Source of the DNA: a virus
DNA length: 60,234 nucleotides
IMG/VR virus record: IMGVR_UViG_3300037961_004087
Location: 1-60,234 of that record
Direction: 5' to 3' (one strand)
In this document: positions 10,058 to 60,234 of the stretch, in pieces
How the letters are laid out: each line of letters opens with the position of its first letter
Position numbering within the stretch: position 1 is the first letter of the stretch
Translations under genes and position numbers: made by a program
Notes under the pieces: generated by a model
Seen by the model: the letters and a program-made list of their open reading frames with translations, nothing else
What the model was told of the DNA's origin: nothing
Databases searched by the model: none

Positions 10058-10382
10058 TCTAGAAAAAGTAGCAAATAGAATATCTTCTCACATATCAGCA
10101 AAAGATCAAAACTTTGGAATTGACCCCGCAACTGTAACACTGATTATAAGTATTATTATAAATCTTGTTAGATTGTGGTGGAATTGTAGAAGTGCTGAAA
10201 AAATTCAAGGGGAACTTCGCAACCCGTCTTGGTTGTTTAAGTTGTTTTTGAAGAGAGAGATAAGAAAAAAAGTAAAGTCCGGTAATCGTAGAAAGACGAT
10301 GTACGGTGCTTTCATAGATGTTGGTAAAAATTTATCGGAAAAAGAATTAAATAATATTTTAAGAGAAATCGGAGGAAACTAA
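10050..10382 (+). CDS. Small membrane protein with basic C terminus
   Basis: 110 residues from the ATG at 10050, which overlaps the end of the lipoprotein gene. One transmembrane segment (TVTLIISIIINLVRLWW, about residues 28-46) is followed by a basic region (KREIRKKVKSGNRRKTM). It belongs to the run of membrane genes between the peptidase and the terminator at 11315. I recognise no family. Confidence 0.6.
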   Translation: MNDLEKVANRISSHISAKDQNFGIDPATVTLIISIIINLVRLWWNCRSAEKIQGELRNPSWLFKLFLKREIRKKVKSGNRRKTMYGAFIDVGKNLSEKELNNILREIGGN

Positions 10383-10669
10383 TGACTATGTTTCAGTGGG
10401 TAATGATTGGTTTGGCGGGTATCCTTGTTGCACCGATCTTTTGGGAAAAGGCTAAGGGTTTTATTCCACAAAGTAAACAACCTGAACCTGTACCAGAACC
10501 ACCAGAACAAGACACGGAAGATACTTGCGATGGGTTGGTTGATGTTGTTGAGTGTTGGGATCATCTTTTACAGTGTTGTGAATCGCAAGATATGCATGAT
10601 GCTTCAAGAGAATTAAGAAAGATCTTTCCCCTTTTCGTAATTTCTACCCCAAAGGAGGAGGAAGTATGA
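10382..10669 (+). CDS. Small membrane protein with acidic Pro-rich tail
   Basis: 95 residues. An N-terminal hydrophobic segment (FQWVMIGLAGILVAPIFW) is followed by PEPVPEPPEQ and an acidic region with four Cys (TCDGL, VECWDHLLQCCES). It overlaps the previous stop (TAATG) with GGAGG at good spacing. The exported Cys residues could be clients of the thioredoxin-like lipoprotein. Function is unknown. Confidence 0.6.
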   Translation: MTMFQWVMIGLAGILVAPIFWEKAKGFIPQSKQPEPVPEPPEQDTEDTCDGLVDVVECWDHLLQCCESQDMHDASRELRKIFPLFVISTPKEEEV

Positions 10670-11133
10670 GCAACAATTTAAGAATTGGACTAGCGTTTAT
10701 TCTAGTTGTCGTAGGATTATTTGGTGAGTCAACAATTGGTTGGTTTAAAGATAATGTAGAAGTTGTTAATGAACCGGAAGTAAAAATTACTGAACCTTCA
10801 TTAGAAAATAAAGAGTTAGTAAGACCAATTAGTGAAATAGATTTCTCTAAAGAAGATGCCAAATTAGTTTCTTGTTATTTTTTAGAAGTAGCAGATGTGG
10901 TTGAAGATGATTCACAAGTAATTAAAACAACTGAAACATTTTCTAACTTTAATCTTATGTCTGGGCTTTTACATTTTAATACAAAGTTTGCAGGTAAATA
11001 CGATGGTCTTGGAGATGCCGTAGAAAGTGCTGTTCAAAACACTATAGGTTTAGATAATCAAGCCTTGACACCTGACAAAAGAAAAGATTTGGTAGAAATC
11101 TTAGAAGCAATCGCTTGGAGTGCCAATCAATGA
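10666..11133 (+). CDS. Membrane-anchored exported protein, unknown
   Basis: 155 residues. An N-terminal anchor (IGLAFILVVVGLFGESTI) precedes an acidic soluble region (KLVSCYFLEVADVVEDDSQV) and a helical end (RKDLVEILEAIAWSANQ). It overlaps the preceding gene by four bases and has a strong GGAGGAGG site. It probably shares the module's envelope location. No motif is recognised. Confidence 0.6.
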   Translation: MSNNLRIGLAFILVVVGLFGESTIGWFKDNVEVVNEPEVKITEPSLENKELVRPISEIDFSKEDAKLVSCYFLEVADVVEDDSQVIKTTETFSNFNLMSGLLHFNTKFAGKYDGLGDAVESAVQNTIGLDNQALTPDKRKDLVEILEAIAWSANQ

Positions 11134-26421: not shown

Positions 26422-27651
26422 ATGAAAAGAAGAGATTTTGTCAAACTTGGTGCCGCAACATTCGTAGTAGGTAATGTAGAAGCTAGTTATGCAGATTCAA
26501 AAAATAGTGACGAAACTGCCGTCCTTTTCGTTTTTCTTAACGGTGGGGCATCTCATATTGAGACTTTTAATCCTATACCACTTGCTCCTGCTGACAGGCG
26601 ATCTGTAACGGGTCATACTAAAACAAATGTTACCGGCATCGAGCTTGGCGGATTGTTTAAAGAATTATCCAAGCGTACAAATAAGATTGTAATTCCTAGA
26701 GCGTTTGGTCATAGAGATCAGAATCACGCATCTTCTGTACACTGGGTGGTTACTGGTGAAGCAAACTTTGGTGCTGGAACAAGCTCCAAGTGGCCTAGTC
26801 ATGGGAGTATGATGAGTAGGTATCATGGTCCAAACACAGAGGATGGTTTACCACACTACGTCAAGATTGGTGGGTTCGCTCACGATGATGCTGCTTGGCT
26901 TGGCGGTAAGTATATGGGGTTTGATGCTACCAAGGAGGGGCGTAAAGATCTGCAACTTCTTGGCAGTAGTGATGCGTTCAAAAAAAGATTATTTGCACTA
27001 AACGTAATTGACAAAGGTTTTAAAGCCAGAGAACAACAATTGGCTAAAGACTGGTCTGCACTCCGTGAGCAATCCGTAGACATTATTCTGGGTAATGCCT
27101 CCAAATCGTTTAGAGTAGAAGAAGATAAAGACTACAACTCGTTCAAGGAGCACTCTTTTGGCTCAGACGCTTTAACCGCAATCAGGCTTTTGCAGGCTGG
27201 GTCGAAGTTTGTAACACTTAACCTTGGCGGTTGGGATATGCATCAGAATATTGGAGCATCGTTATCTAACACACAGGTTGTACTAGACACATACTTAGCT
27301 AAAATTATGGACACACTGGAAGCAAGGGGTATGTACGAAAGAGTTATGCTTGTTGTGACTTCTGAGTTTGGACGCACACCAAAAGTAAATGCAAACCAAG
27401 GTAGAGATCATTTTGGTAAACTTGCCCCACTTATGATTAGCTGTGGTAGTTATGAAATGGGTAGGACTATTGGTCAAACAAATGCAAATGCTGATGATTT
27501 TGAAGATGGTAGAACTACTCCAGAAGATTTATCTTGGACTATTTTTGACCACTTAAATATGGAAAAGCGTACACGTTATACGGCGACTGATGGTCGTCCA
27601 CATTACATAGTCAAAGAAGATTCTAAAAATATTCTTAAAGATGTATCATGA
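26422..27651 (+). CDS. Exported DUF1501 protein (sulfatase/phosphatase-like fold)
   Basis: 409 residues. The N terminus KRRDFVKLGAATFVVGNVEA is a Tat-type signal (RRDF). FVFLNGGASHIETFNPIP, AFGHRDQNHASSVHWVVTGE and VVTSEFGRTPKVNANQGRDH are hallmark DUF1501 blocks; the family is related to the alkaline phosphatase/sulfatase fold. DUF1501 is especially abundant in Planctomycetota. It would be exported folded through the Tat pathway. Substrate is unknown. A PAP2 phosphatase follows, overlapping by four bases. I know of no characterised phage DUF1501 protein; host gene capture is the likely source. Confidence 0.9.
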   Translation: MKRRDFVKLGAATFVVGNVEASYADSKNSDETAVLFVFLNGGASHIETFNPIPLAPADRRSVTGHTKTNVTGIELGGLFKELSKRTNKIVIPRAFGHRDQNHASSVHWVVTGEANFGAGTSSKWPSHGSMMSRYHGPNTEDGLPHYVKIGGFAHDDAAWLGGKYMGFDATKEGRKDLQLLGSSDAFKKRLFALNVIDKGFKAREQQLAKDWSALREQSVDIILGNASKSFRVEEDKDYNSFKEHSFGSDALTAIRLLQAGSKFVTLNLGGWDMHQNIGASLSNTQVVLDTYLAKIMDTLEARGMYERVMLVVTSEFGRTPKVNANQGRDHFGKLAPLMISCGSYEMGRTIGQTNANADDFEDGRTTPEDLSWTIFDHLNMEKRTRYTATDGRPHYIVKEDSKNILKDVS

Positions 27652-28318: not shown

Positions 28319-29485
28319 ATGCCTTTACCAGAAAAAAGAGAAGGTGAAAAACCCGGAGAGTTTATTGCTCGATGTATGAGTGATCCAAAAATTCATAGAG
28401 AATATCCAGATCAAAAACAAAGAACAGCAGTCTGCATGAGTAAAGCCTGCGAGGGAATGAGTTACATTGAAGCTGCTGACTTTCAAATTAATTTTGAAGA
28501 ATATGGCTTTACTGAGGATCTAACAGAAGATAATTGGTACTGCCCCACAGAAGCAGAGTATGTTGATGATGTTGAGTGGGGAGAGCAAACCGAAGAGTGG
28601 GATGTTTCGGAAGCAAGGCCGGGACTCTGGGAAAACATTCGTAGAAAAAAAGAGCGAGAAGGTAAGAACTATAAACCCGCTCGCACAGAAAAAGAAGGCA
28701 GACCTACACAAGAGCAACTTAAAAGGGCACAGTCTGATAAGCCCGGACCAAAAGATCCTCGTAGAACTCCTGCACCCAAGAAAGATCAAAAGAAAGGCTC
28801 CAAAAAGAATAAGCCAGATAGTGCCAAAGACGGCAAGAGTAAAATTACTTTTAGCAAAGAAGTGACTGCACAACTACAAAATAAAGTTAAAGAGCACAAT
28901 GCTAAGGGTAAAGGTTCAAAAGCAACTCTTGGTATGCTTAAAGCTGTCTATCGTCGCGGTGCTGGTGCTTATTCAACAAGTCACGCTCCAAAAATGAGTC
29001 GTCATGGCTGGGCTATTGCTCGTGTAAATGCTTTCCTCAAGCTGCTAAGAAGTGGAAGACCTTCCAATCCAAACTACACGACAGATAACGATTTGTTGCC
29101 AAAGGGTCATCCTAGAAAATCTAAAGCAGAAGAGGCGGAAGCAGGTTTCAAGTACCAAGACCCAAAAACAGGAGAGATTTACGAATACGAGCGTAAAGGA
29201 ATCTATCGTAAAAACGGTCGCGTCCTTGTTCCTGCTCGTGCTGCGGAATACCAAGGTCGCAAGGTTCAGCTTGGTAAACCATTCAGAACCCCAAAGGGAC
29301 CGAAGAAGTTTAGTGTATATGTTAAAAACGACAAGGGTAATGTTGTAAAGGTCAATTTTGGCGACCCTAACATGAAGATCAAAAAATCTGATCCTGCTCG
29401 TCGCAAGTCGTTCCGAGCTAGACACAACTGCGATAATCCCGGCCCTCGTTACAAAGCACGATATTGGAGTTGCCGTAAGTGGTAG
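28319..29485 (+). CDS. Virion-associated-type protein with DUF5824-like centre
   Basis: 388 residues in three parts. The N terminus has FIARCMSDPKIHREYPDQKQ followed by RTAVCMSKA, a motif often found at ends of phage head proteins. The centre (TLGMLKAVYRRGAGAYSTSH) resembles DUF5824. The C terminus (VNFGDPNMKIKKSDPARRKS, then RARHNCDNPGP and ARYWSC) is a block shared by head or prohead proteins of marine myoviruses. I know these blocks only as conserved phage segments without assigned chemistry. It overlaps the next gene by seven bases. Confidence 0.7.
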   Translation: MPLPEKREGEKPGEFIARCMSDPKIHREYPDQKQRTAVCMSKACEGMSYIEAADFQINFEEYGFTEDLTEDNWYCPTEAEYVDDVEWGEQTEEWDVSEARPGLWENIRRKKEREGKNYKPARTEKEGRPTQEQLKRAQSDKPGPKDPRRTPAPKKDQKKGSKKNKPDSAKDGKSKITFSKEVTAQLQNKVKEHNAKGKGSKATLGMLKAVYRRGAGAYSTSHAPKMSRHGWAIARVNAFLKLLRSGRPSNPNYTTDNDLLPKGHPRKSKAEEAEAGFKYQDPKTGEIYEYERKGIYRKNGRVLVPARAAEYQGRKVQLGKPFRTPKGPKKFSVYVKNDKGNVVKVNFGDPNMKIKKSDPARRKSFRARHNCDNPGPRYKARYWSCRKW

Positions 29486-31464
29486 AAAAGGACTTCTCCA
29501 AATGCCAATGCCCAAAGGCGGGGTGGTGCGATCTTCTTAAAAAAGAAATGACCGCCATCCCTCCTAACTGGCAGTGGTGTCAAAATCTCACACCGCCAGA
29601 AAGAGAAGAGTATTACAATACAATATTTAAGCAAGCAAGGGTTATTCATAAATCAAAAGATGAAGACCTTGTTGATGTAGTTAATTTTTATGATGAGCTA
29701 CCTAAGCAGAAAAGTCACTTAGCCATCTGCGTGATTCCAGCTAATGATCTAGCTGTAGAACTTCTAAACATTACACGCGATTCAATCAAATCTTATGCCG
29801 AAAAATGCGGTGCAGACTACATAGAGCTAACTGGAGATCAACATTCAGGCTGGCCTATGGCTAATAAGTATCGACTACACCAAGTAACATCAAAATATGA
29901 TAAAACACTATACTTAGACTGTGACGTTATCGTTTCTCCAAGTGCTGATAATATATTTGATGCAACCCCTGATGACAAAATATCTGCATACGATGAATAT
30001 GAAATATGGCAATTAAAAAATGAAACAAGATGGATTGAAATACAACAAGACTTAATAATTAGACAGTTAAATGAAGAGGATTTAAACGAGAAGTATTTAA
30101 ACAATGGTAAAACACTATTTCCAAATAGTATGATTAACGGGGGAGTGCTTGTGATTCCAAAGTGCTGCTCAGACTATTATCAACAACCAAAGAATATTTA
30201 TCCTAAGCACTGGTGTTTTGATCAGAATTATTTGACACTCAAGTTGCCAAAAGAAAAACTTCATAGACTAGATTTTAAATGGAATTGTTCATATGTTTCT
30301 GGTGACGGTTTTTGGTATCATTCATCTAAGGCACACTTTATCCATGTAAATTCTTTAAGCAAAAGTTTAAAAGCTAGAAAAGCTATCTTATCGTCAATAC
30401 TGCTGGGTGATTTTTGCCCAATAGAACAGCACAGGTACGACAGTTCTTATAACTATTCCAATCTTGAGTGGAAAGAAAGTAAGCTAAACATAAAGACGAA
30501 TACGTTTAAAGAAAACAGAATAGGTCTGATTCAAGGTGAGATAGCTCCGGGCGGTGCCTTAACTTGGATGAAATTTTTTGCACAATGTTTTGGTGACGAT
30601 ATTTCAGGGATAGTCCCAATTATAGATTTTCCCAACTATCACCATCTTGAAACAGGGATGAAACAAGGTTATTCCAAAGAAGAAATGGAAGAGCTTTATG
30701 TTAAATCAGATACAATTATTTACTGGGCCTACTATCTACCAGATAATTTACCATCCTTTATAAGAGACAACCCCCTTAAAAAGAAAATCATTTACATATC
30801 CCATTCAGGATTTAGACACAACAAATTACACGATCTACTACTAGACGTTTTTAAACCAGACATCAGTATTTTTGTAGATGACATTGTAGCAAAACATTAC
30901 GATTCTATATGTATACCACCACCAGTTTCTTTTAATGAAAAACTAGAAAGAAATCCAGTTCCAAAAAATATACTGTGGCACCACAGGTTAGAACATTATA
31001 AAGGGGTTTCGGTTCTCGCTGATATTATTCGCTATCTACCGGATTTTAATTTTCATATAGCTGGTAGTTGGGACGAAAGTTTTCACAGTAAAAAAACGGT
31101 CGAAGCTGTTAACAACCGAATATTGTCTAATGGAAACAAAAATGTTTTTTACTACGGCCATCTAGACAACATGGATGACTTATTAGAAACTTGTTCTCTA
31201 TCTCTGTCTACTTCTTTTGATGAATCTTTTGGCTTATCAGTGGCAGAAAGTATTGCACACGGTATCCCAACAGTTTCCCACGCACTTGGGATAGGTAGGT
31301 TTGCTGACTTTACTTTGAAATACAAATCTCACCCTTCTGAGTGGGCCAAGGCAATAAGGCTCTGCGAACATGAAGTAAAAGAAGCGAAGAATAAAGATTA
31401 CATTAGAGAAGAATTTTCTATAGAACGTTTTGAAGAAAAGTGGAGAAAAGTGTTATGTTTGTAA
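29479..31464 (+). CDS. Fused glycosyltransferase: GT8-like (GT-A) plus GT4-like (GT-B)
   Basis: 661 residues. An N-terminal Cys cluster (KCQCPKAGWCDLL, WCQNL) may bind metal. Residues about 75-330 form a GT-A domain with YLDCDVIVSPSADN (DxD) and a later SMINGGVLVIP. Residues about 350-660 form a GT-B domain with RIGLIQGEIAPGGALTW, LWHHRLEHYKGVSVLADIIR and FDESFGLSVAESIAHGIPT (E(x7)E). Two sugar-transfer steps could be made by one polypeptide. The start is the GTG at 29479, nine bases after GGAG. It opens the glycan cassette. Confidence 0.85.
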   Translation: MVEKDFSKCQCPKAGWCDLLKKEMTAIPPNWQWCQNLTPPEREEYYNTIFKQARVIHKSKDEDLVDVVNFYDELPKQKSHLAICVIPANDLAVELLNITRDSIKSYAEKCGADYIELTGDQHSGWPMANKYRLHQVTSKYDKTLYLDCDVIVSPSADNIFDATPDDKISAYDEYEIWQLKNETRWIEIQQDLIIRQLNEEDLNEKYLNNGKTLFPNSMINGGVLVIPKCCSDYYQQPKNIYPKHWCFDQNYLTLKLPKEKLHRLDFKWNCSYVSGDGFWYHSSKAHFIHVNSLSKSLKARKAILSSILLGDFCPIEQHRYDSSYNYSNLEWKESKLNIKTNTFKENRIGLIQGEIAPGGALTWMKFFAQCFGDDISGIVPIIDFPNYHHLETGMKQGYSKEEMEELYVKSDTIIYWAYYLPDNLPSFIRDNPLKKKIIYISHSGFRHNKLHDLLLDVFKPDISIFVDDIVAKHYDSICIPPPVSFNEKLERNPVPKNILWHHRLEHYKGVSVLADIIRYLPDFNFHIAGSWDESFHSKKTVEAVNNRILSNGNKNVFYYGHLDNMDDLLETCSLSLSTSFDESFGLSVAESIAHGIPTVSHALGIGRFADFTLKYKSHPSEWAKAIRLCEHEVKEAKNKDYIREEFSIERFEEKWRKVLCL

Positions 31465-32213
31465 ACATATCCATGCCAGTTTATAACACCGATGTGCCGT
31501 GGCTAGAAGAAGCGATTGAAAGCATCAGAAATCAAACATATAAAGATTGGAAACTTTTTATTGTAAACGATTGTAGCACAAACAAAGAGACAATCGACTT
31601 TATCAATTCTATTAAAGATTCAAACATCAAAACTGTTACAACTAATGAGAATCTAGGTTGTGACCGAGCTAGACTATTTGTTAGAAACTTCCTAGACGAA
31701 GACTGTGAACTTGTCGCATCTATGGATGGTGATGACATAATGTTCCCAACAAGATTAGAAGAACAAGTTAATTTTTTGAATAGAAATGAAGATGTGGGAA
31801 TATTGGGGGGACAAATGCAGCTATTTGTTGACCGTTCACTACCCTTCACTGATATGCGACTTCCAATAATCGACCCATTAACTTCGCATCCTTATAATGT
31901 CAACGACTATATCCTATCAAGCGATTGGGTCATAAACAATCCCTCAACAATGATAAGACGCTCCATAGTAGATGATTTTAATATTGATTTAATAAAAAAA
32001 ATCCAAGACGAACTAGGTTTAAGAAGAAATGTCTATGGGGACGTAATTTTTTACGGTATCAATGCAGTAAAAGGTGTGAAGATTAGAAATTTATCAGACA
32101 TTGTTATTTTTTATCGAGTGAGTAGACACAATCTTTCTTCTAAAAATTGGTATGGAAACATTGATATGCATAAGCAGTTAAGAAAGGTACTACTGTCATA
32201 TTATGTTGGTTAA
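31455..32213 (+). CDS. Glycosyltransferase family 2
   Basis: 252 residues. The GT2 start VNISMPVYNTDVPWLEEAIE is followed by NQTYKDWKLFIVNDCSTNKE and LVASMDGDDIMFPTRLEEQV, with the catalytic-site DDD-like motif DGDD. The ATG at 31455 is preferred (GGAG nine bases upstream). It overlaps the preceding fusion gene. It lacks a transmembrane tail, so it is a soluble transferase. Confidence 0.93.
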   Translation: MFVNISMPVYNTDVPWLEEAIESIRNQTYKDWKLFIVNDCSTNKETIDFINSIKDSNIKTVTTNENLGCDRARLFVRNFLDEDCELVASMDGDDIMFPTRLEEQVNFLNRNEDVGILGGQMQLFVDRSLPFTDMRLPIIDPLTSHPYNVNDYILSSDWVINNPSTMIRRSIVDDFNIDLIKKIQDELGLRRNVYGDVIFYGINAVKGVKIRNLSDIVIFYRVSRHNLSSKNWYGNIDMHKQLRKVLLSYYVG

Positions 32214-32811
32214 TAGAAAAAGAAAAATGATTTTGGTTCGTATTCCTAAAACCGCCTCTACGTCCATTAATGACGCACTAATTGAATCTGATGAGAATTG
32301 GAAATATATTGAGGTGTCGAAAGATTGGCATGTCAGTAGTAAAATCCTAAAAGACTTTGATGAATTTTCTGATTATGAATTAATTGCCGTCTCAAGAAAT
32401 CCTTGGGATAGACTGGTTTCTCTTTTTTGTTTCTACTTCAAAAGAACCTCAGATATAATTCGAGATCCAGAATCTGTAAGACTAGAGGATCATGAAAAAT
32501 GTTGGGCTTATGAGTGGGCTAGAAAGTTAAATATTGAAATTATAACGAAAGGATTTCATAATTTTATAAAAGATAACAAAGACACATCCTTAAATAGTTA
32601 TGACTTTTGGGTTGACGAATCTCACCCCGGAGGTGTAAAGTGGTTCCGTTTTGAACAAATATGTGACCTAGAACAATATCTAGACATAAAACTTACAGTA
32701 AAAAACAAATCAAATCACCTGCACTACTCCCACTATTATGACGATGAGACAAAAGAGATCGTTAGGATAAGATACGAAAAAGACATAACGAGGTTTGGCT
32801 ACGAATTTTAA
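32203..32811 (+). CDS. Sulfotransferase-family protein
   Basis: 202 residues. The PAPS 5'-phosphosulfate loop is RIPKTASTSINDAL and the 3'-phosphate site is AVSRNPWDRLVSLF, both standard for carbohydrate sulfotransferases. It would move sulfate from PAPS to a sugar or protein. No PAPS synthesis gene is in the window, so the host must supply it. It ends the first part of the glycan cassette, before promoter P4. Confidence 0.85.
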   Translation: MLVNRKRKMILVRIPKTASTSINDALIESDENWKYIEVSKDWHVSSKILKDFDEFSDYELIAVSRNPWDRLVSLFCFYFKRTSDIIRDPESVRLEDHEKCWAYEWARKLNIEIITKGFHNFIKDNKDTSLNSYDFWVDESHPGGVKWFRFEQICDLEQYLDIKLTVKNKSNHLHYSHYYDDETKEIVRIRYEKDITRFGYEF

Positions 32812-32838
32812 AAGTTTGGCATAATTCACAAAAACCCC

Positions 32839-32867
32839 TTGCAAAATAGTCTTCCGTAGACTATAAT
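32839..32867 (+). promoter_or_regulatory. Sigma70-type promoter P4 of the polymerase block
   Basis: TTGCAA (32839-32844), 17-base spacer ending CGTAGAC, TATAAT (32862-32867). The spacer end matches P1 and P3. It starts a 5' leader of about 85 bases before the polymerase gene. Confidence 0.85.
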
Positions 32868-32875
32868 AGGGTAGA

Positions 32876-32928
32876 CGCAATTCAACGGATTTGGCGTATT
32901 ATACGCCTTCAACTTCCCTTTGCGTTTT
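32876..32928 (+). promoter_or_regulatory. Structured 5' leader of the polymerase gene
   Basis: GGCGTA (32893-32898) and TACGCC (32902-32907) form a perfect 6-bp stem with a 3-base loop. Flanking ACGCAA and TTGCGT could close an outer stem. The hairpin lies about 50 bases before the ATG. It could be an operator or a translational control element; no protein match is claimed. Confidence 0.4.
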
Positions 32929-32958
32929 ACATTGACTAACTAATATTGAAAGACGGCT

Positions 32959-34584
32959 ATGAATTGGTTTCCACTACTGAACTATACTCACTATTCACTA
33001 CAATACGGCTTTTCAAAGCCAAATGAGCTTGCTAAAAAATGCAAGCAAAACTCTTACCCTGCATGTGGTATTGCTGACTATAAAACAATCAGCGGTGCTG
33101 TATCTTTCTATAAAGCCTGCATCAACAATGATATTAAACCTATCATTGGCTGTTCTTTCGATGGCTTTACTCTTTTTGCCAAAAACCATGCGGGGTGGTT
33201 GAACCTCATCGAGATTGTCTCTACAATTGATGCAGATGGTAATGAGGACAGGGGAACGATTATAAAATTAGCGAGACAAGGCAATCTGATCTGTATTGCA
33301 AAGTCTGAGGCTTTGTCTCCGGTTTCCGGTGATGATTTTTACATCTGGTCTGAGGCTTTTACAAAAAGCAATTACGTAAATAAAGACCAAGCAGATTTAC
33401 ATAGAATTGTGCTTTGTGGAAAACTAAAAACGACCTTTCATAAAGTTAAAAAGAACGGACCACCCGAAGAATTAGCTCCATACTTTGAATCTAGTGAGTT
33501 CTATATTAAAGATAAGTCAGAGTCTGCTAAACTAATTGTTGATGACCCACGTATGGATGATTTCGATTCTATATTTAAAAAGGTAGAAAACTATAATATT
33601 CTCAGCAAACCGATGCTGCCCAGATTTGATATCCCAAGTAAATTTTCTAGTGAAGGTGACTATCTACGTCATCTTGCTAGGCAGGGTTGGATGAAACTAC
33701 TCAATGACAAAATTCAAAGCGAAGAGCAGCGTAAGGTGTACGGTGACAGATTCAATAAAGAGTTTTCGGTTATTGAAAAAGCAGATCTGTTCGGTTACTT
33801 CCTAATCGTCTGGGATATTTTAAATTGGTGTCGGGAGCAGGGTTGGATGGTGGGTCCGGGTCGTGGATCTGCTGCTGGTTGCCTAATCTCTTACCTAGTT
33901 GGTATCACAGAGATTGACCCCATTGAGTTCGATCTGTTGTTTGAACGATTCTACAATGAGGGTCGTAACACAGAAGATCACATCTCTTTGCCCGATGTTG
34001 ACATGGATGTTCCGGGTAAGAAGCGAGATGAAATAATTACTAGACTAAAGGAAAAGTACGGGTCTGATAATGTTAGTCAAATGCTTACATTTGGTAGACT
34101 GCAAGGGCGAAGTGCGATGAAAGAGGTGCTTCGTGTAAACGATGCCTGTGGCTTTGCCGAAATGAACGAGATCACAAAGTACATTCCAGACGAAGCTGCT
34201 ATCTCTGACCAACTTGCAGAGATGGACGAAGAAGACCGCTCTATTATTCGTTGGGCACTAATTAATCGTTCCGACGACCTGATGGACTATTGTCACCTAA
34301 ATGATAATGGAAGTCTTGAAGGTGATTTTGCAGAATACTTCCAACAAGCTATTGATATTGAAGGTACATTTAAAACACAGGGTAAACACGCTGCTGGTGT
34401 TGTTATATCCGCTGAACCACTATTTAGAGTTTGTCCTATGGTAAACCCAAAGAGTGGTGATGAAAAGATCGCGGGACTAGAAATGAACGACCTAGAAGCA
34501 CTAGGACATGTTAAGTTTGATCTTTTAGGGTTGAACTTATTGGATAAATTAATGCATATTAAGGAGCTTATTAATGAATCGTGA
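32959..34584 (+). CDS. dnaE: DNA polymerase III alpha, N-terminal half (PHP and palm)
   Basis: 541 residues. The first part is a PHP domain with altered metal residues: LNYTHYSLQYG (usual HxHxxYS lacks the first His) and ADYKTIS (usual ADHG). The palm has GWMVGPGRGSAAGCLISYL, LPDVDMDVPGKKRDEI (two catalytic Asp), GRLQGRSAMKEVLRV, and VKFDLLGLNLLDKL (third catalytic Asp). The protein then ends, where DnaE would continue with the FQLES region. That continuation is the separate gene at 35998. No intein motif is visible at the break. All three catalytic Asp are therefore in this half. Confidence 0.93.
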   Translation: MNWFPLLNYTHYSLQYGFSKPNELAKKCKQNSYPACGIADYKTISGAVSFYKACINNDIKPIIGCSFDGFTLFAKNHAGWLNLIEIVSTIDADGNEDRGTIIKLARQGNLICIAKSEALSPVSGDDFYIWSEAFTKSNYVNKDQADLHRIVLCGKLKTTFHKVKKNGPPEELAPYFESSEFYIKDKSESAKLIVDDPRMDDFDSIFKKVENYNILSKPMLPRFDIPSKFSSEGDYLRHLARQGWMKLLNDKIQSEEQRKVYGDRFNKEFSVIEKADLFGYFLIVWDILNWCREQGWMVGPGRGSAAGCLISYLVGITEIDPIEFDLLFERFYNEGRNTEDHISLPDVDMDVPGKKRDEIITRLKEKYGSDNVSQMLTFGRLQGRSAMKEVLRVNDACGFAEMNEITKYIPDEAAISDQLAEMDEEDRSIIRWALINRSDDLMDYCHLNDNGSLEGDFAEYFQQAIDIEGTFKTQGKHAAGVVISAEPLFRVCPMVNPKSGDEKIAGLEMNDLEALGHVKFDLLGLNLLDKLMHIKELINES

Positions 34585-35248
34585 CATTATTGTATTTGAC
34601 TTTGAAACTGGTGGACGCAATCCGCATAGGTGTCAGCCTACACAGATTGCTGCTATCGCACTTGACGGTAGGAACTTTAGACTCAAGGGACAATTCAATA
34701 GTCTCATGCGTCCCATTATCGACGACGAGAAAGCAATTAAAGCTGGCGTTGACCCGCTAGAAGAAGGTGCTTTGAAAGTTACAGGTCAGACCAGAGAGAA
34801 GCTGGCTAAAGCACCACTTCCAAAGGGTGTATGGAAAAAGTTCTGTGCGTTTGTAGACAAATATAACTGGAAAGGCACATCTTACTTTGCACCTATTCCA
34901 TGTGGGTTTAATATTCTTGGTTACGATATGCACATTGTGAATAGGTTGTGCGAACAGTACGGACCCTATGACGATAAGCGTAAATGTCAAAAGTTATTTC
35001 ATCAAATCTACAAGATAGACGTGATGGATGATGTATGGTTATGGACGGAGGGTGATCCAAATGTTAAGTCTATTAGTATGGATAGCTTGCGAGAAAGAAT
35101 GGGACTGTCCAGTGAGAACGCTCACGATGCTCTCCAAGACGTTAAGGATACAGCAAACATCTGGATCAAATTGCAAAAGTCCAGACGAGCAGTCTACAGA
35201 AACATGAAATTTGAAAAGGCATTTGCCGATGGCAAACTTTTTGTATAG
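34574..35248 (+). CDS. DnaQ-like DEDDh 3'-5' exonuclease
   Basis: 224 residues. Exo I is IIVFDFETGGRNPH (DFE), Exo II is PCGFNILGYDMHIV, and Exo III is ENAHDALQDVKDTANIW (HD...D). This is the DEDDh fold of proofreading exonucleases. It overlaps the end of the polymerase N half by 11 bases. With the PHP site of that half degenerate, this enzyme is the likely proofreader. It has no clamp-binding motif that I can see. Confidence 0.9.
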   Translation: MNRDIIVFDFETGGRNPHRCQPTQIAAIALDGRNFRLKGQFNSLMRPIIDDEKAIKAGVDPLEEGALKVTGQTREKLAKAPLPKGVWKKFCAFVDKYNWKGTSYFAPIPCGFNILGYDMHIVNRLCEQYGPYDDKRKCQKLFHQIYKIDVMDDVWLWTEGDPNVKSISMDSLRERMGLSSENAHDALQDVKDTANIWIKLQKSRRAVYRNMKFEKAFADGKLFV

Positions 35249-35281
35249 TTTCGTTGTAAATACTTTTAAAGGAGGATTTTA

Positions 35282-35992
35282 ATGGGTGTTTATCAATGGG
35301 ATCAGTTTGTTGATTATAAAGGCATCAAACTGTTAGACGGGCGAAGTACAATACCTCATTTACCAATAGAGTCTCACGATGATGAGTACGATATGTTTAT
35401 GAGTGTGCTAGAAAATGTTAAAAACGATAATCCGGTAATGATAGAGTGTGGCTCTTGGTGGGCGTTTTGGTCACTAGCTTTCAGAAAAAAGTTTCCTGCT
35501 GGCAGAAACATTTTGATCGAGTTGGGCAAGCGTCAAATTTCTATGGGAAGAAAGAACTTCGCACTAAACGGTCTTGATGCATCTCACTACTGGGGAGGTT
35601 TTTACATTAACGATTCTAATGTATACGAACCTACGGTAAGAGAAAGTAACTACAACTATGACGATCATGGTGGTTATTGGGATACGACCCTATCTGGTCA
35701 AATGACCGGCCCAGAAATTAACTTTACAGACGTTTACGAGATTGAGGGGCTAGATGAAATTGATATGCTGCACATGGATATTCAAGGCAGCGAATATAAA
35801 TTAATTGTTGATTTGTATAACAATAATCGAGATGTTTTAGATAAGATTCAGAATGTTGTTATTGCTACTCATCACCCAGTTGCACAGCAAGAATTAATTA
35901 GAATCCTTATGAGCAACGGAATGAGACTATTGAGAAATGAGCCATTCGGGAGTGTGGGTGGCGATGGAATGATCGCTTTAACTAGGAATTGA
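35282..35992 (+). CDS. FkbM-type methyltransferase within the polymerase block
   Basis: 236 residues. A Rossmann start NPVMIECGSWWAFWSLAFRK is followed by NILIELGKRQISMGRKNFAL and the FkbM signature DEIDMLHMDIQGSEYKLIVD. Family members O-methylate sugars or small molecules. AAAGGAGG before the ATG predicts strong translation. It sits between the exonuclease and the polymerase C half, although all other FkbM-type genes here are in the glycan cassette, so it looks inserted. Confidence 0.85.
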   Translation: MGVYQWDQFVDYKGIKLLDGRSTIPHLPIESHDDEYDMFMSVLENVKNDNPVMIECGSWWAFWSLAFRKKFPAGRNILIELGKRQISMGRKNFALNGLDASHYWGGFYINDSNVYEPTVRESNYNYDDHGGYWDTTLSGQMTGPEINFTDVYEIEGLDEIDMLHMDIQGSEYKLIVDLYNNNRDVLDKIQNVVIATHHPVAQQELIRILMSNGMRLLRNEPFGSVGGDGMIALTRN

Positions 35993-35997
35993 ATTAT

Positions 35998-37563
35998 ATG
36001 ATTGAGAGAGATGACACAAAGGCTTGGGCTTTGTATAAGGATGGACTGACCAAGGGGTTGTTTCAGCTTGAGAGTAATCTTGGGCGAGCTTGGTCGAAGA
36101 GGGTTGCACCGGAGAGTATGGAAGAATTAGCGGCATTAATCGCTATCATCAGACCCGGAACGTTGAAGGCGGTTAGTGACGGAAAGTCTATGACACAAAG
36201 ATTCGTAGACCGTAAACATAAGAGAGAAGATGTTGTATATCTTGACCCTAGTCTAGAAGAAATTCTAAAGACTACGCATGGCGTACTTGTATACCAAGAG
36301 CAGGCTATGCTTATCGCGGTTAAAGCTGCGGGATTCAATGAAATGGAGGCAGACAACCTTCGTAAAGCTATTGGTAAAAAGAAAGCGTCTCTCATGGCTG
36401 AGATTCGTGGACAATTTATTGAAGGCTGCAAAAAGATTGGACTTGTAGATCAAGACACTGCAAACCAGATTTTTGACTGGATTGAAAAATCATCTAGATA
36501 CTCTTTCAATAAGTCTCATGCCGTAGCTTACGCAGTTAATTCGTACAACTCTGCTTGGTTCAAAGCTAATTACACCAAAGAGTTCTTCTTGTCGTACCTG
36601 TACTATGCGAATGAAAAGATGGACCCTCACCAAGAAATCTATGAGCTAGTAAACGAAGCTAAACTATTCGATATATTGGTAAAGACCCCTAAACTAAGCA
36701 GGTTCTCTGAGAAGTTTGCCATCTTTGGTGATGATATCCAGTTTGGAGTTCGTGACGTTAAAGGTCTTACAGGTGTTACTGGTGAGAAAGTCTTAAAGGC
36801 TATTGGCGATTCAGCAGAAGAGTTGGGCAAGCCTGCCGACGAGTTTACTTGGATGGATGTACTTATCTACATCGCCCCCAAGATTACGTCTACGGCTTTC
36901 AAGGCACTCGCCGGTATTGGATTCTTCTCTACCAAATCAACTGGAGTGACTAGGAATCAAGCTCTTTACGAATACCTCATTTGGAGAGAACTAACAAAAG
37001 CAGAAGTCAAGTGGGTAACAGAGAATTATCCTAAAAAGAAGTGGTCAAAACTACAGGATTGTTTCAGAGATCTGTCTCCCACCAAGAAAATGGGAGGTGG
37101 CTGTAGCAACGCTAATCGTAGTCAGATTGTACATGGTGAAATTGAGATGTTAGACAATCCACCATACGATATGGCTGATGAGCCACAGTGGGTTATCGCA
37201 GAAGAGGTAAAACTCTTGGGTTGCCCTGTGTCATATCAGTACACAGATGCTATAGACGCATCAATCGCTAACACTACATGTCAAGAAGTAGCCAACGGCA
37301 AGTTTGGCAAAGATATTTGCATTGTAGCAAATGTTCAACGTGTAGCTAATCATAAGATCAATAAAAAGAATAGCAAGCAGAAGGGTCGAACTATGTCGTT
37401 TCTAACAATAGAAGATGCTACTTGCTCGCTTGACAATGTTATCATTTTTCCAGACGCCAGAGATAAGTACCAGTTTGTTTTATATGAAGGAGCGAACCTG
37501 ATGCTTTGCGGCGAGATCGAGAAAGATAATTCGTTTATTGTTGACAAAATTCATGAAATCTAG
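35998..37563 (+). CDS. dnaE: DNA polymerase III alpha, C-terminal half (fingers and beyond)
   Basis: 521 residues. It resumes the DnaE alignment with KGLFQLESNLGRAWSKRV, ELAALIAIIRPGTLKAVSDG, YQEQAMLIAVKAAGF, EADNLRKAIGKKKASLMAEI and FNKSHAVAYAVNSYNSAWFK. Near the C terminus is an OB-like strand set (GRTMSFLTIEDATCSLDNVI). No catalytic Asp motif of the palm is present. The ATG at 35998 is ten bases after AGGA. It must associate with the N half at 32959 to make an active polymerase, which is inferred. Confidence 0.92.
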   Translation: MIERDDTKAWALYKDGLTKGLFQLESNLGRAWSKRVAPESMEELAALIAIIRPGTLKAVSDGKSMTQRFVDRKHKREDVVYLDPSLEEILKTTHGVLVYQEQAMLIAVKAAGFNEMEADNLRKAIGKKKASLMAEIRGQFIEGCKKIGLVDQDTANQIFDWIEKSSRYSFNKSHAVAYAVNSYNSAWFKANYTKEFFLSYLYYANEKMDPHQEIYELVNEAKLFDILVKTPKLSRFSEKFAIFGDDIQFGVRDVKGLTGVTGEKVLKAIGDSAEELGKPADEFTWMDVLIYIAPKITSTAFKALAGIGFFSTKSTGVTRNQALYEYLIWRELTKAEVKWVTENYPKKKWSKLQDCFRDLSPTKKMGGGCSNANRSQIVHGEIEMLDNPPYDMADEPQWVIAEEVKLLGCPVSYQYTDAIDASIANTTCQEVANGKFGKDICIVANVQRVANHKINKKNSKQKGRTMSFLTIEDATCSLDNVIIFPDARDKYQFVLYEGANLMLCGEIEKDNSFIVDKIHEI

Positions 37564-37592
37564 TTGCAAAAAATCGACTAGTGGACTATAAT
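37564..37592 (+). promoter_or_regulatory. Sigma70-type promoter P5 of the glycan cassette
   Basis: TTGCAA (37564-37569), 17-base spacer, TATAAT (37587-37592). The spacer ends GTGGAC. It begins at the stop of the polymerase C half and lies 12 bases before the second SSB-like gene, so it leads the long run of glycan genes. Confidence 0.85.
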
Positions 37593-37603
37593 AAGGAGTA
37601 CAC

Positions 37604-37921
37604 ATGAACCATTGTATTTTTACAGGGTATCTATTGTTTGACCCAAGCGTGGGTTATGAATCAAATCCATCAGTTTGTGTTTTTAAGCTGGTAACATACG
37701 AGTATACAAGAAACAGGCGTGGTGAAAAAAAGCGTTACCCAACGACTGTAACCTTCCAAGCCTTTGATAGTGGTGCAGATGCCATCGCTAAACTAGGAAA
37801 GAAGGGGATGAAAATGACCGTACACGCTTCAGCCAGAAACGGTGTTATGAAAACCGACTCTGCGGACGATATTATTTTTAGAGTTAATCAATTCGACTTT
37901 GGATGTTTGGACAAGGACTAA
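37604..37921 (+). CDS. Second SSB-like OB-fold protein
   Basis: 105 residues. HCIFTGYLLFDPSVGYESNP, VCVFKLVTYEYTRNRRGEKK, PTTVTFQAFDSGADAIAKLG and GMKMTVHASARNGV follow the strand order of SSB. There is no acidic tail. It differs strongly from the SSB at 3412, so it is not a recent duplicate. It may act with the nearby polymerase, or replace the first SSB at another stage. GGAG lies before the ATG. Confidence 0.75.
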   Translation: MNHCIFTGYLLFDPSVGYESNPSVCVFKLVTYEYTRNRRGEKKRYPTTVTFQAFDSGADAIAKLGKKGMKMTVHASARNGVMKTDSADDIIFRVNQFDFGCLDKD

Positions 37922-37922
37922 A

Positions 37923-39602
37923 ATGAGAAAGAAACGAATTCTGTTCTGTAGCGAAGCTACTTTCCTGAACACTGGATACGCGACCTATACTCGTGAGATT
38001 TTGAACTATCTTCACTCTACGGGTAAGTATGAGATTGCAGAGATGGGTGCGTATGGAGAAAGGAATGACTCAAGGGCTGCTAACATTCCTTGGAAGTATT
38101 ATGGGGTAGCACCTAATACTACGTGTGAACCAAAAGCGACCAAAGAGGAATTAGATGCCTATGGAGCTAGTGGTACAAACCAATTTGGTGAATGGATTTT
38201 TGAACATGTTTGTTTAGATTTCATGCCAGACATTGTGTGTGACATTCGTGACTTTTGGATGCTTGACTTTGCAGAGCGTAGTCCTTTTCGTCAGTATTTT
38301 GATTGGGCCATTATGCCCACTGTAGATGCTCGACCACAAGCCAGACAGTGGGTATCTACTTACTCTGGAGCAGACGCATGTCTTACATATTCTGATTGGG
38401 CAGGAGAAGTTCTAAAAAATCAAACTGGTGGTAAAATTAAGTATTGGGGATCGGCACCACCCTCTGCCCATCCAGCATATGCTCCAGTCGCAGACAAGCG
38501 ATCCCATAAATTATCTTGGGGTATAAATCCAGATCATAAGATTATCGGAACAGTTATGCGTAACCAGAGACGTAAACTGTACCCAGATTTGTTTGAGGCG
38601 TTCCGAAAGTTTTTAAATAACACAGGTAGAAACGATGTATTTCTTTATTGCCATACGTCCTACCCTGATCTTGGTTGGGACATCCCAGAGCTTCTGCTAG
38701 AAAATGATTTGTCTTCTAAGGTTTACTTTACATACATTTGTCCAGAAACAAAAAGACCATTCCCATCATTGTTTAAGGGGGCAGTGGCACAATCACCATT
38801 TACTGGTAAGTGGGGTTCTACACTTTCTAATGTAAAGAATGGTGCATCATATGAAGATCTATCATCAATTCAAAACCTGTTTGACTTGTACACTCAATAT
38901 GCAAACTGTGAAGGGTTTGGTCTGCCATATGTAGAAGCTGCGGCTTGCGGTGTTCCTGTGTGCGGCACTGATTATTCTGCTATGGAGAGCGAGATTCGCA
39001 AGTTGCAAGGTCATCCAATCAAACCATCAGCACTATACAAAGAATTAGAAACTGGTTGTCTACGGGCAGTGCCGGATAATGATGCTGCGGCAAAATACTT
39101 TGAAGATTTCTTCAATAAGTCTGATGAAGAACGTGCAGCAGAAGGTGAAAGAACCAGAAAGAATTTTGATAAACATTTTCAATGGCACCTGAGTGGATCA
39201 AAGTGGGAGGCTATTTTCGATTCTATGCAAATCAAAGATGTGCAACAGACTTGGGCTTCTCCACCTAAGATCCACCAACCAGCACCAAAGCCTGAAGGTA
39301 TTGAAAACGCAGAACCATCTAAACAAGCACAATGGTTAATTGCAAATGTTCTTGGTGACACAAGTCGAATCAATACTTTCTACGAAAGAAGATTAATTAG
39401 AGATCTAACATATAAAAATGCTACTAGTTCCACTGGTGGTATGTATTTCAACGAATCTTCCGCTGCTTTTGAAGGTATGAACCAAAGGCATCCGTTTGAC
39501 ATCAACATAGCGTATGATAATCTAGCGGCACTTTGTAATCGGAGAAACAGTTGGGAACAAAAACGTGTAGACACAATGAAAGAAAGAGGTTTGATGCAGT
39601 GA
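37923..39602 (+). CDS. Large GT4-like glycosyltransferase
   Basis: 559 residues from the ATG at 37923. The N-terminal domain begins KKRILFCSEATFLNTGYATY. The donor domain has HKIIGTVMRNQRRKLYPDLF and FGLPYVEAAACGVPVCGTDY (E(x7)E-like). About 110 residues follow the GT core (from ASPPKIHQPAPKPEGIENAE onward) and end in a helical region with no known motif. This extra tail may bind the acceptor or a virion protein. It follows the second SSB-like gene within one base. Confidence 0.83.
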   Translation: MRKKRILFCSEATFLNTGYATYTREILNYLHSTGKYEIAEMGAYGERNDSRAANIPWKYYGVAPNTTCEPKATKEELDAYGASGTNQFGEWIFEHVCLDFMPDIVCDIRDFWMLDFAERSPFRQYFDWAIMPTVDARPQARQWVSTYSGADACLTYSDWAGEVLKNQTGGKIKYWGSAPPSAHPAYAPVADKRSHKLSWGINPDHKIIGTVMRNQRRKLYPDLFEAFRKFLNNTGRNDVFLYCHTSYPDLGWDIPELLLENDLSSKVYFTYICPETKRPFPSLFKGAVAQSPFTGKWGSTLSNVKNGASYEDLSSIQNLFDLYTQYANCEGFGLPYVEAAACGVPVCGTDYSAMESEIRKLQGHPIKPSALYKELETGCLRAVPDNDAAAKYFEDFFNKSDEERAAEGERTRKNFDKHFQWHLSGSKWEAIFDSMQIKDVQQTWASPPKIHQPAPKPEGIENAEPSKQAQWLIANVLGDTSRINTFYERRLIRDLTYKNATSSTGGMYFNESSAAFEGMNQRHPFDINIAYDNLAALCNRRNSWEQKRVDTMKERGLMQ

Positions 39603-40606
39603 GAACAGTAATAGTAACAGGATGTGCAGGACTACTGGGTGCCCACTTTAGCCGACACCTTTTGAGTAAAGGTTATCGCGTTATTGGTATCGACGATTTG
39701 AGTGGTGGTTATAGTGACTACCTCCCGAAGTCAGACGATTTTGAGTTCTGGCCCATTGATCTTTCTGAAAAGTCCACGGTAAAGTCACTCTCTTATATCT
39801 TTTCAACTAATAAACCAGTAGCCTGTTTCCATTTTGCCGCCTATGCAGCGGAAGGATTGTCGCCCTTTATAAGGCACTATAACTATACAAATAACATTTT
39901 ATCAAGTGTTAATATTATTAATCAATGTATCGAGCATGATACGAAGATGATTTTTACATCTTCTATGGCTGTATACGGAGATCAAGATCCTCCGTTCACA
40001 GAAAATATGGGTCCAGCACCCATCGACCCCTACGGTGTTGCAAAGTATGCTACCGAACTCGACATCAAGATTGCTAACCAACAACACGGTCTTCAATACA
40101 CTATTGTTAGGCCACACAATATCGTTGGTATTTATCAGAATATCTGGGACAAATACCGAAACGTTGCAGGTATTTTTATTCGTCGCGTGCTCGCTGGCGA
40201 GCCGATGTTGATTTATGGTGATGGAGAACAAACTCGTGCGTTCTCAGACGTTAAGTATTACATGGAACCATTTGAAACCTTGGTTGATAGATGTCACGGT
40301 TACACATTTAATCTGGGTGCAGACAAAGCATACACCATCAACGAGCTTGCAGACACAGTTCAACGTGTTGCTAAAAAGCATGACTACAAAGCAGAGAAGA
40401 AGCATGTAGAGGGTCGTCACGAAGCTAAACATGCACACTGCGACCATACATTGGCAAAAGATCCCAGAAACCTTGGTTTTTATGATGGTACAGATCTTGA
40501 TAAACTGATTGACGAAATGTTCCACTGGGCCATGCGTCAACCAGAACGAGAGCAAAAGAAGATGGACTATGAAGTAGAAAAAGGAATATATGACTACTGG
40601 AAATAA
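39599..40606 (+). CDS. NAD-dependent sugar epimerase/dehydratase (extended SDR)
   Basis: 335 residues from the GTG at 39599. The Rossmann motif is VTGCAGLLGAHF (GxxGxxG-like with GLLG). The active-site Tyr-Lys is in PYGVAKYATELDIK and the Ser/Thr in FTSSMAVYGD. DGEQTRAFSDVKYY matches the UDP-glucose 4-epimerase group. It would change a nucleotide sugar used by the neighbouring transferases. The last 30 residues are charged and extended. It overlaps the gene before by four bases. Confidence 0.88.
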   Translation: MRTVIVTGCAGLLGAHFSRHLLSKGYRVIGIDDLSGGYSDYLPKSDDFEFWPIDLSEKSTVKSLSYIFSTNKPVACFHFAAYAAEGLSPFIRHYNYTNNILSSVNIINQCIEHDTKMIFTSSMAVYGDQDPPFTENMGPAPIDPYGVAKYATELDIKIANQQHGLQYTIVRPHNIVGIYQNIWDKYRNVAGIFIRRVLAGEPMLIYGDGEQTRAFSDVKYYMEPFETLVDRCHGYTFNLGADKAYTINELADTVQRVAKKHDYKAEKKHVEGRHEAKHAHCDHTLAKDPRNLGFYDGTDLDKLIDEMFHWAMRQPEREQKKMDYEVEKGIYDYWK

Positions 40607-57928: not shown

Positions 57929-60234
57929 TTAAGATGTTGAAATAGAGGCGGAAATAAATTGCTCCGTAAGTTTCATAGACGCAGAACCTCCGGCAGGACC
58001 AGCACCGTGAAACTTTGCATCGTAATCACCAGCAAGCCAAGTCATAGATGTATCGTTGTGGAAACGGTAAAAAACGTCATATGCATTATTTTCTGATAAG
58101 AAATTAGGATCTAACACAATCTCAGTCTCGTTCTGTTCTACAACAAAGGCATCAGCCGCTCCGGTGTCTTGATCGTTGTAAGTCCCCTGTGTAAATTGTG
58201 GTGCTGTTTTTGATGATGAAACTATAAATTCCGTTTGGTTTTGTGCGTCAATTACTTGACGAGGTTTAGGGTCAGTAACTACATAGGATTGAATTTGTGG
58301 AGCTAAGAAAGAAAGATCCAAATCTTTCCCATTTGTAGACTCTATAATGTCTAATCTAATTGGTCCTTTAAATCCACTACTCAAAATAGTGCCGCTAGAA
58401 ATTGTGTTTGTAACGTTGACCCCAATACCCTCATATTTGAGTTTTACTGGGACACCCTCACCTACACCAGCAATATCAGCAACCTCAGTGACACGTAATA
58501 CCACGTTTTTACTTTCTATTCCAACCTTATCTCCCACACTAAATCCCGTACCAAATCCATTACCATTGTAAATGATTGATTTGATTTGATTACTAGTCAA
58601 ATCAGTGATAAATGAAGGGTTTTCATTAAATGGGGCCTGTGTCTTTGGAAACATTTGGTGATCCAGTCCATCTAGTAATATGTTGATTTCCGATTCATGC
58701 CAATTATCTGCAACTGATGGGACACCTTGTTCGTAAGAAAAATATCTATATGGTAATAGTTTACCAACCCGCGAGGTGACAATAGGCCAAAATTGCTCAT
58801 CTGCCAAGGGTGGATCGAAAAACGATGGTGTTGGATTTGTCAGGTCTATAGTAGCATTAGAGAACATAAGAGAGCCAGATTCCAAGTATTGTGTAACATA
58901 ATAACCGTCGTTTGCATGTACTTCTGCTCCTGCATACGAGGTATCTTCATGCAACAACCATCTAGCCGGTCTTTTAAAGTCCACTGTGCTACTTGGTACA
59001 GGTGCGAAATAATTCCAAACAATCGGTTCTCCTGCTGCATTTTGACCAGATAGCTCTTTCTTCAAACCATTTCGATTCGATAGTGTTACTGAAGAACCGG
59101 TATCATCGTAAGCAATTATTCTATTCCAGCTAAAAGCACTGTTGTTGTTAAAGTTTGTAGTATTACTTGTTCTGTCTAAATACATGTCATAGGCATAATC
59201 TATATCTGGATTGTAATGGTGGACTGCAAATACTCTTGGATCATATACAGTTTGATTTCTTGGATGTTCATGGAATATTCTAGCGGCAAGCAAAGCATAG
59301 CCTATTTTTTGGTAGTCTGGCAGAGGACCAGCCGCTCCCCAAGTATGTGTAATGTCAAAGGAAACACCCCCGCCAAATTTAAATTCTGCTGATACATCAT
59401 TTCCCATGCCATACTTGTTGTCAGTGGTAATTGTAATAGACTTTGTTGCTCTAACTGTTGTGAATGTACTAATTACACCAAACGCATTAGGACCAAGCCG
59501 CATGGATGGCGGTGCCCACTGAAACGCACCGTCACCAGTTTGACCCAGAAACGAACCGATAATATTCTTCTCTGTAGCCCAATAACACTGCTTGCTCAAA
59601 CCATTATAGCTATATTTGTATATATCATCTATATCTGATCCATACTTAAGTCCGTTTTGAATGTCAAATAACTGATTTTTATAATTAAATTTATCTTGAA
59701 ACTCTCTGGTTTCAAAACATCTAGTAACTGGTCTACTGAAGTCAAATTGGGTTCTGTGAATTTCAGATTCCATCCCCGTTCTCACTTCTTTGGTCGTTGT
59801 AGTAAGATTTTGAGGGCTACTAGTATTGTCTGGATCTTGAGGTGGATTTGCCTTTTTGCTTCCAAATTGCTGATAAGCCTCGATCTTTAATGGTCTAAAC
59901 ATTAATGTTCCGCCAATAGGTTTAAAATCAAAGGCACTATCATTTTCAGAATATTTAGGTGTCTCACCCTGTACGGCTTCTACCTTTCTAAGGTATTCGT
60001 TTGCACCCTTGTATATGTTTGTATCTCTAGCTGGAACCCCAGCCTCATACATATCAGCCAATTTATGAATACTGTAAAGCGGGCTACCATTGACACCAGA
60101 GGGTGAAGCGTTAAGAGCTATATCTGCTGGTAACTGTACTAAAGCTGTTGATCCGTTGACAGTTTCCTGAAAAAACATAGAACCTTCTGGATGAAAATGA
60201 CATCTTGACCATCTGTGGTCTATGTCGCCATCAA
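57929..60234 (-). CDS. Large virion structural protein (5' end outside the window)
   Basis: At least 767 residues. The frame continues upstream of the ATG at 60178 without a stop to the window edge, adding DGDIDHRWSRCHFHPEGS, so the true start lies beyond 60234. Visible features are an N-terminal part with ETVNGSTALVQLPADIALNA, a central section (NAFGVISTFTTVRATKSITI, FAVHHYNPDIDYAYDMYLDR) and a beta-rich C terminus (VGDKVGIESKNVVLRVTEVA, FIVSSSKTAPQFTQGTYNDQ). Size and composition suggest a baseplate or tail-fibre protein. No enzymatic motif is seen. Confidence 0.75.
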   Translation of the reverse strand, partial: DGDIDHRWSRCHFHPEGSMFFQETVNGSTALVQLPADIALNASPSGVNGSPLYSIHKLADMYEAGVPARDTNIYKGANEYLRKVEAVQGETPKYSENDSAFDFKPIGGTLMFRPLKIEAYQQFGSKKANPPQDPDNTSSPQNLTTTTKEVRTGMESEIHRTQFDFSRPVTRCFETREFQDKFNYKNQLFDIQNGLKYGSDIDDIYKYSYNGLSKQCYWATEKNIIGSFLGQTGDGAFQWAPPSMRLGPNAFGVISTFTTVRATKSITITTDNKYGMGNDVSAEFKFGGGVSFDITHTWGAAGPLPDYQKIGYALLAARIFHEHPRNQTVYDPRVFAVHHYNPDIDYAYDMYLDRTSNTTNFNNNSAFSWNRIIAYDDTGSSVTLSNRNGLKKELSGQNAAGEPIVWNYFAPVPSSTVDFKRPARWLLHEDTSYAGAEVHANDGYYVTQYLESGSLMFSNATIDLTNPTPSFFDPPLADEQFWPIVTSRVGKLLPYRYFSYEQGVPSVADNWHESEINILLDGLDHQMFPKTQAPFNENPSFITDLTSNQIKSIIYNGNGFGTGFSVGDKVGIESKNVVLRVTEVADIAGVGEGVPVKLKYEGIGVNVTNTISSGTILSSGFKGPIRLDIIESTNGKDLDLSFLAPQIQSYVVTDPKPRQVIDAQNQTEFIVSSSKTAPQFTQGTYNDQDTGAADAFVVEQNETEIVLDPNFLSENNAYDVFYRFHNDTSMTWLAGDYDAKFHGAGPAGGSASMKLTEQFISASISTS

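Follow-up and report, generated by a model that had tools for sequence, protein, structure and literature searches.

A linear virus record of 60,234 bases (IMG/VR record IMGVR_UViG_3300037961_004087, analysed over its whole length and called the window below) encodes DnaE, the alpha subunit of DNA polymerase III (Pol III alpha), in two separate genes, polN and polC (products N and C), between which an exonuclease gene is situated. At a probability of about 0.82, the two products constitute a two-chain, non-covalent C-family DnaE replicase with an exonuclease partner of its own, derived from an ancient single cut at a recurrent fission site. From the sequences we infer the N–C assembly, its polymerase activity, the partner of the exonuclease and the cause of the cut as follows. 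N would contribute the PHP, palm and thumb domains with the three catalytic Asp, and C the fingers, the tail and the oligonucleotide/oligosaccharide-binding (OB) fold; the two would bind non-covalently across the palm–fingers interface and thereby restore a single active site. The DEDDh exonuclease, a protein of its own, would act as the proofreading partner, its translation probably being coupled to that of N. The gene would have undergone a single ancient cut in the ancestor of a large clade of aquatic phages, within a linker at which the fission of phage dnaE appears to have happened again independently. Homing-type endonucleases, which seem to be still settling in the gaps between these genes, are a plausible cause of the cut.

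N and C match complementary parts of one polymerase. N matched the PHP profile (PF02811; 59.5 bits) and the complete DNA_pol3_alpha profile (PF07733; 230.2 bits, positions 2-260 of 260), while C matched DNA_pol3_finger (PF17657; 142.3 bits); against solved Pol III alpha chains, the best phmmer E values were 1e-54 for N and 2e-45 for C, which, together with the recurrence of the arrangement among relatives, excludes a chance match. The domain set of a C-family DnaE, with PHP and palm in N and fingers in C, was found by profiles and by folds. A preliminary description of this DNA had proposed that DnaE is divided into two genes after the third catalytic Asp, which was borne out, the open reading frames (ORFs) being found where it had placed them, and had suggested alignment with the full-length protein as a check: sequence matches on Escherichia coli DnaE extend up to residue 574 for N and begin at residue 590 for C. 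AlphaFold models of N (predicted local distance difference test (pLDDT) 90.9, predicted template modelling score (pTM) 0.88) and C (pLDDT 85, pTM 0.71) both found Pol III alpha chains as their best structural matches, with residues 1-541 of the N model aligned to E. coli DnaE 4-575 (2hnh; Z 27.3, 501 residues) and residues 1-501 of the C model to 588-1021 (5fku; Z 18.5, 360 residues). As the N model ends at E. coli residue 575 and the C model resumes at 588, the break is a clean gap in the palm–fingers linker, with ~12 residues unrepresented. In aligned relatives, N ends ~20 residues past the third Asp and C starts ~21 residues before the FQLES motif. The three catalytic Asp (D346, D348 and D521) were conserved without exception among 105 distinct N sequences and correspond by alignment to D401, D403 and D555 of E. 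coli. In the fit described in PMC4703070, the palm and fingers of the E. coli enzyme (residues 281-432 and 510-810) were treated as a single rigid body; the cut falls within this body, so the two halves would need to bind each other tightly.

The divided gene is the only form seen among relatives. One IMG/VR relative has nearly the same genome (99.99% identity over 17,572 bases), and in all six close IMG/VR relatives N, exonuclease, C and an SSB gene follow in that order. Among 303 loci including the window, which represent the better-matching part of the relatives since the wider searches kept the best 80 of 353, 119, 170 and 495, 284 have separate N and C ORFs with the exonuclease between them and none is fused; the other 19, mostly at contig ends, are without N or C and were scored as neither split nor fused. 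Counted by distinct sequence, all 198 loci with both halves are split, again with the exonuclease in between. A survey of related phages for the intact gene, as the preliminary description had recommended, thus returned no fused copy in the 198 distinct loci. Among genome-contig loci, 76 of 80 are fused, two (L176 and L177) are split and two (L190 and L224) were not classifiable. L176 and L177 are contigs filed under a Lokiarchaeota assembly with the same split arrangement; since virus contigs of IMG/VR share 96% identity with the polC of L176, the pair most likely belongs to phages and was mis-binned.

A first tree, of 51 rows, unites the split aquatic rows in a single clade (support 100 by the Shimodaira–Hasegawa-like approximate likelihood ratio test, SH-aLRT) that is separate from the DnaE of bacteria and of other phages. 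A second tree had 53 rows; it included 15 intermediate loci, skipped L394 and, on account of long branches or of time, omitted 13 of the earlier rows (SPbetaL6, Muntaha, Finn, L223, L179, L204, L087, L095, L103, L120, L128, L156 and L177). It likewise placed the split aquatic rows in one clade. Split actinophages sit elsewhere in the tree, among fused ones; the split label required three changes in both trees, and a single clade of all split rows was rejected by the approximately unbiased test (p 6e-5). The cultured actinophages Fowlmouth, MrMiyagi, Cuke and P1201 (GenBank) also carry two DnaE genes cut in the palm–fingers linker, as judged in detail for P1201 and Fowlmouth and from annotation and frame for MrMiyagi and Cuke; they differ in that their two ORFs overlap briefly, in having no exonuclease between and in their distant position in the tree. 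As N ends ~22 residues after the third Asp in Fowlmouth, ~31 in P1201 and 20 in the window, these three cuts share one short linker, and the sister of Fowlmouth, Indlulamithi, is fused. Phage DnaE is also cut at other places: after the PHP region in Suzy, LittleFella and Papyrus (judged from ORF lengths), and into three ORFs with cuts elsewhere in the Enterocloster phage CB457P1 (L174:5302-10130), where no Rfam intron was found. The view of the preliminary description that an intein-free split is unusual in a phage is therefore not supported, this being the sole form in a large clade (198 of 198 loci), with the same linker cut in four other phages, cuts elsewhere in further ones and a jumbo-phage split already in print (PMC7824862). 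As a separate observation, at L324:1108-4101 (also in L325 and L328) polN is interrupted immediately ahead of the catalytic DxD motif, with an HNH-like ORF in between in L324 and no Rfam intron in the L324 break.

One alternative, possible but doubtful, is that insertion of a homing endonuclease made the cut and still maintains it, the exonuclease being a mere passenger. The gap between polN and the exonuclease gene exceeds 200 bp in 23 of 103 distinct loci and that between the exonuclease gene and polC in 39 of 98, and both hold varying cargo. The commonest cargo cluster of the second gap (18 loci) matched Endonuclease_7 and another (3 loci) HNH_3, while clusters of 9, 9 and 4 loci had no nuclease match and resemble HNH or PD-(D/E)XK proteins on visual inspection only (each cluster was scanned through one representative, one of the clusters of 9 through two). 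Free-standing nucleases thus settle in these gaps, as they do in known genes in pieces. Like such genes, one ancestral gene is found here as two ORFs without splicing; an intact gene in close relatives, which also belongs to that picture, was found in 0 of 198 distinct loci. An endonuclease at the break was seen in some relatives, through the Endonuclease_7 or HNH_3 matches, and not in the window, yet 47 of 98 loci are compact and without cargo, so that the split can persist without a mobile element. Moreover, the supposed passenger, the exonuclease, is never missing, and of the three genes it is under the tightest constraint.

The exonuclease is a fixed member of the unit, and the methyltransferase that follows it in the window is cargo. 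Besides its profile matches (Table 1), the exonuclease has D9, E11, D118, H184 and D189, which are conserved at ≥98% across 99 sequences. Among the four closest pairs, the ratio of non-synonymous to synonymous divergence (dN/dS) was 0.016-0.037 for the exonuclease, 0.064-0.079 for N and 0.046-0.088 for C; for each of the two halves, four of eight comparisons were saturated and left out. Both halves are thus under purifying selection. The preliminary description had put an exonuclease and a sugar-type methyltransferase into the gap, of which the former is real and conserved, while the methyltransferase call is weak (its FkbM match lies below the cut-off), the gene being unmatched in the five other close relatives (L003-L007), where other genes or nothing take its place. 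Among eight cultured-phage records with relatives of the exonuclease, the stretches around it were inspected in three and contained no polymerase half; MT836709 (L175) is broken at another place. The fixed exonuclease in the gap raises the question of whether proofreading is coupled to assembly. In a stronger version, which appears improbable, the insertion of the exonuclease gene itself would have cut dnaE and the exonuclease would have become a clasp holding the palm and fingers halves, giving an obligate three-chain core; were this so, a replicative catalytic subunit would be unable to form without its proofreading subunit.

Another explanation, that N and C are decaying or diverted and form no joint polymerase, the phage using the replicase of its host, was judged very unlikely. 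Two observations point that way. The metal-ligand motif HxH of the PHP domain is changed to NxT in the window (32980-32997) and in 105 of 196 distinct N starts (the subfamily of the window), while it is kept as HxH in 88 and is different again in 3; furthermore, none of 18 larger related records (99 to 174 kb) yielded a phage beta sliding clamp (PF02768). Against decay stand the strong purifying selection on both halves, the invariant catalytic residues and the fixation of the split in 198 of 198 loci, and the loss of PHP ligands touches a side activity only; perhaps the PHP site was lost while a separate exonuclease took over. All 18 larger records have one PF07733 palm and a single fingers domain (broken up by an insertion in G013); none of them yielded Pol A or Pol B (PF00136). 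The seven close records, the window included, each have one palm and none has Pol A. A second polymerase in the genome, which the preliminary description had named along with an intein at the break as evidence that would tell against its reading, was not found in the window.

Cyanobacterial DnaE, likewise encoded by two genes, as reportedly described by Wu in 1998, is divided close to the FNKSH motif, and a split intein rejoins its parts; that cut lies ~165 residues downstream of the one here. Joining of N and C by comparable protein trans-splicing, or at the RNA level by a split intron, is scarcely credible, even though the clade does carry inteins, in-frame (L119 and L155) and split (L155 and L344), which were readily detected and thus serve as a positive control. 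No Pfam intein matched N, the exonuclease, the methyltransferase or C, in agreement with the earlier remark that no intein residues are visible, and N ends so soon after the third Asp and C begins so shortly before FQLES that intein halves could not be accommodated; a split intein was therefore rejected for this break. Rfam gave no match at E ≤ 1 in window positions 32800-37700, absence from Rfam not being proof, and both gaps measure ≤60 bp in 47 of 98 distinct loci, so a split intron would not fit beside the exonuclease gene; an intron at the break was likewise rejected. The inteins themselves affect the same polymerase genes at other sites. At L119:8331-10679, polC (782 amino acids) contains, between RPG and C, an in-frame intein that matched HNH_2. 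At L155:8479-12112, polC lies in two ORFs and has an in-frame HNH-type intein at that RPG-C site plus an apparent split intein between FNK and S, with an endonuclease-like ORF (10098-10985, no Pfam match) in between; the next gene, for a glycosyltransferase, also looks intein-bearing. At L344:1835-4126, polN is cut by an apparent true split intein between the conserved GRG and SAAG. The split inteins of L155 and L344 were read by eye from the sequence, with a weak Hint match in L155.

A sequencing or assembly artefact or a simple frameshift, which did explain the look-alike same-site split of MT835496 (an UNVERIFIED record, left out of the first tree and of the counts), is practically excluded for the window by the whole conserved gene between the halves, the 99.99% identical second record (17.6 kb) and the 284 of 303 loci that look alike.

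Several points weigh against the two-chain replicase. The model of C is the less certain one (pTM 0.71), and the Shine-Dalgarno sequence of polC in the window is weak. The trees were quick searches without bootstrap, and no fused ancestor that would show how the cut arose was found within the clade. Furthermore, the 18 larger records are linear IMG/VR contigs and possibly incomplete, so another polymerase could be missed, and the sliding clamp was found in none of them.

Comparable split genes are known from other systems. In the review PMC2988022, split gene 43 (PolB) of Aeromonas phages 25 and 44RR, nrdA of Aeh1 and the T4 topoisomerase gene split by mobA likewise give two polypeptides without splicing, with homing endonucleases at or near the break; according to that review, gp43A and gp43B of phage 25 co-purify and have polymerase activity, and the split NrdA of Aeh1 is fully functional. 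As covered there, those cases concern PolB, a ribonucleotide reductase and a topoisomerase, in few phages and with intact relatives, whereas here the polymerase is of the C family, the exonuclease is fixed in the gap and no intact member of the clade was found. In group 2.2 jumbo phages, a minimal Pol III alpha is described as split into two proteins that are proposed to reconstitute, encoded by distant genes alongside a family B polymerase (PMC7824862); here, in contrast, the protein is near full length, the halves lie within a few kb and theirs is the sole polymerase found (PF00136 in 0 of 18 records). DnaE of Desulfonema ishimotonii is reported as two adjacent coding sequences in different frames without a split intein, in a single bacterium and, in the account of it in PMC6390638, without mention of an exonuclease. 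Other split polymerases are in print (PMC10580990 and PMC6892783), and no description of the split of the present clade was found in open-licence PMC papers.

Should N and C cooperate, a whole lineage of uncultured aquatic phages would copy its genome with a two-chain DnaE. A natural split of the palm–fingers linker, reached independently at least twice, could serve as a tool to study the folding of Pol III alpha and is a possible source of two-part polymerases. For annotation, it is a warning that N and C, where each is named as a 'DNA polymerase III alpha' gene, probably make up a single enzyme.

The genes of the window locus are listed in Table 1. The preliminary description had given each half its own start and ribosome site: the separate starts stand, but the start of polC was moved to the ATG at 35998, favoured over the TTG at 35989 because 4 of 5 aligned close relatives begin with MID there, and the Shine-Dalgarno sequences of polN and polC are weak. 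A clear Shine-Dalgarno-like AAGGAG of the exonuclease gene lies within the end of polN, the exonuclease ORF and the 3' end of polN overlapping by 11 bases. The SSB gene follows polC in six of six close loci.

Table 1. Genes of the split polymerase locus in the window
Feature	Position	Strand	Remarks
polN, N-terminal half of DnaE/Pol III alpha (PHP, palm and thumb)	32959..34584	+	541 amino acids; catalytic D346, D348, D521
DEDDh-type 3'-5' exonuclease	34574..35248	+	between the halves; RNase_T 44.3 bits (cut-off 24); PHROGs phrog_192, 'DNA polymerase exonuclease subunit'
FkbM-like methyltransferase	35282..35992	+	variable cargo in the gap between exonuclease gene and polC; weak Pfam match (FkbM 19.3 bits, below the curated cut-off of 22.7)
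polC, C-terminal half of DnaE (fingers, tail, OB fold)	35998..37563	+	alternative TTG start at 35989
SSB-like gene	37604..37921	+	directly downstream of polC; PF00436 28.2 bits (cut-off 26)

Along this operon (32959-37921), synonymous divergence from the four nearest relatives drops from 1.1-1.6 in N to 0.68-0.78 in C and 0.19-0.33 in the SSB gene, which suggests recombination between the halves. A minus-strand ORF of 749 amino acids without a Pfam or PHROGs match lies near the end of the record (57929-60178). Sugar-related genes, encoding glycosyltransferases, a sulfotransferase and an epimerase, flank the polymerase operon on both sides (29479-32811 and 37899-40606), and a DUF1501 protein (182 bits) is encoded at 26422-27651 of this phage genome.

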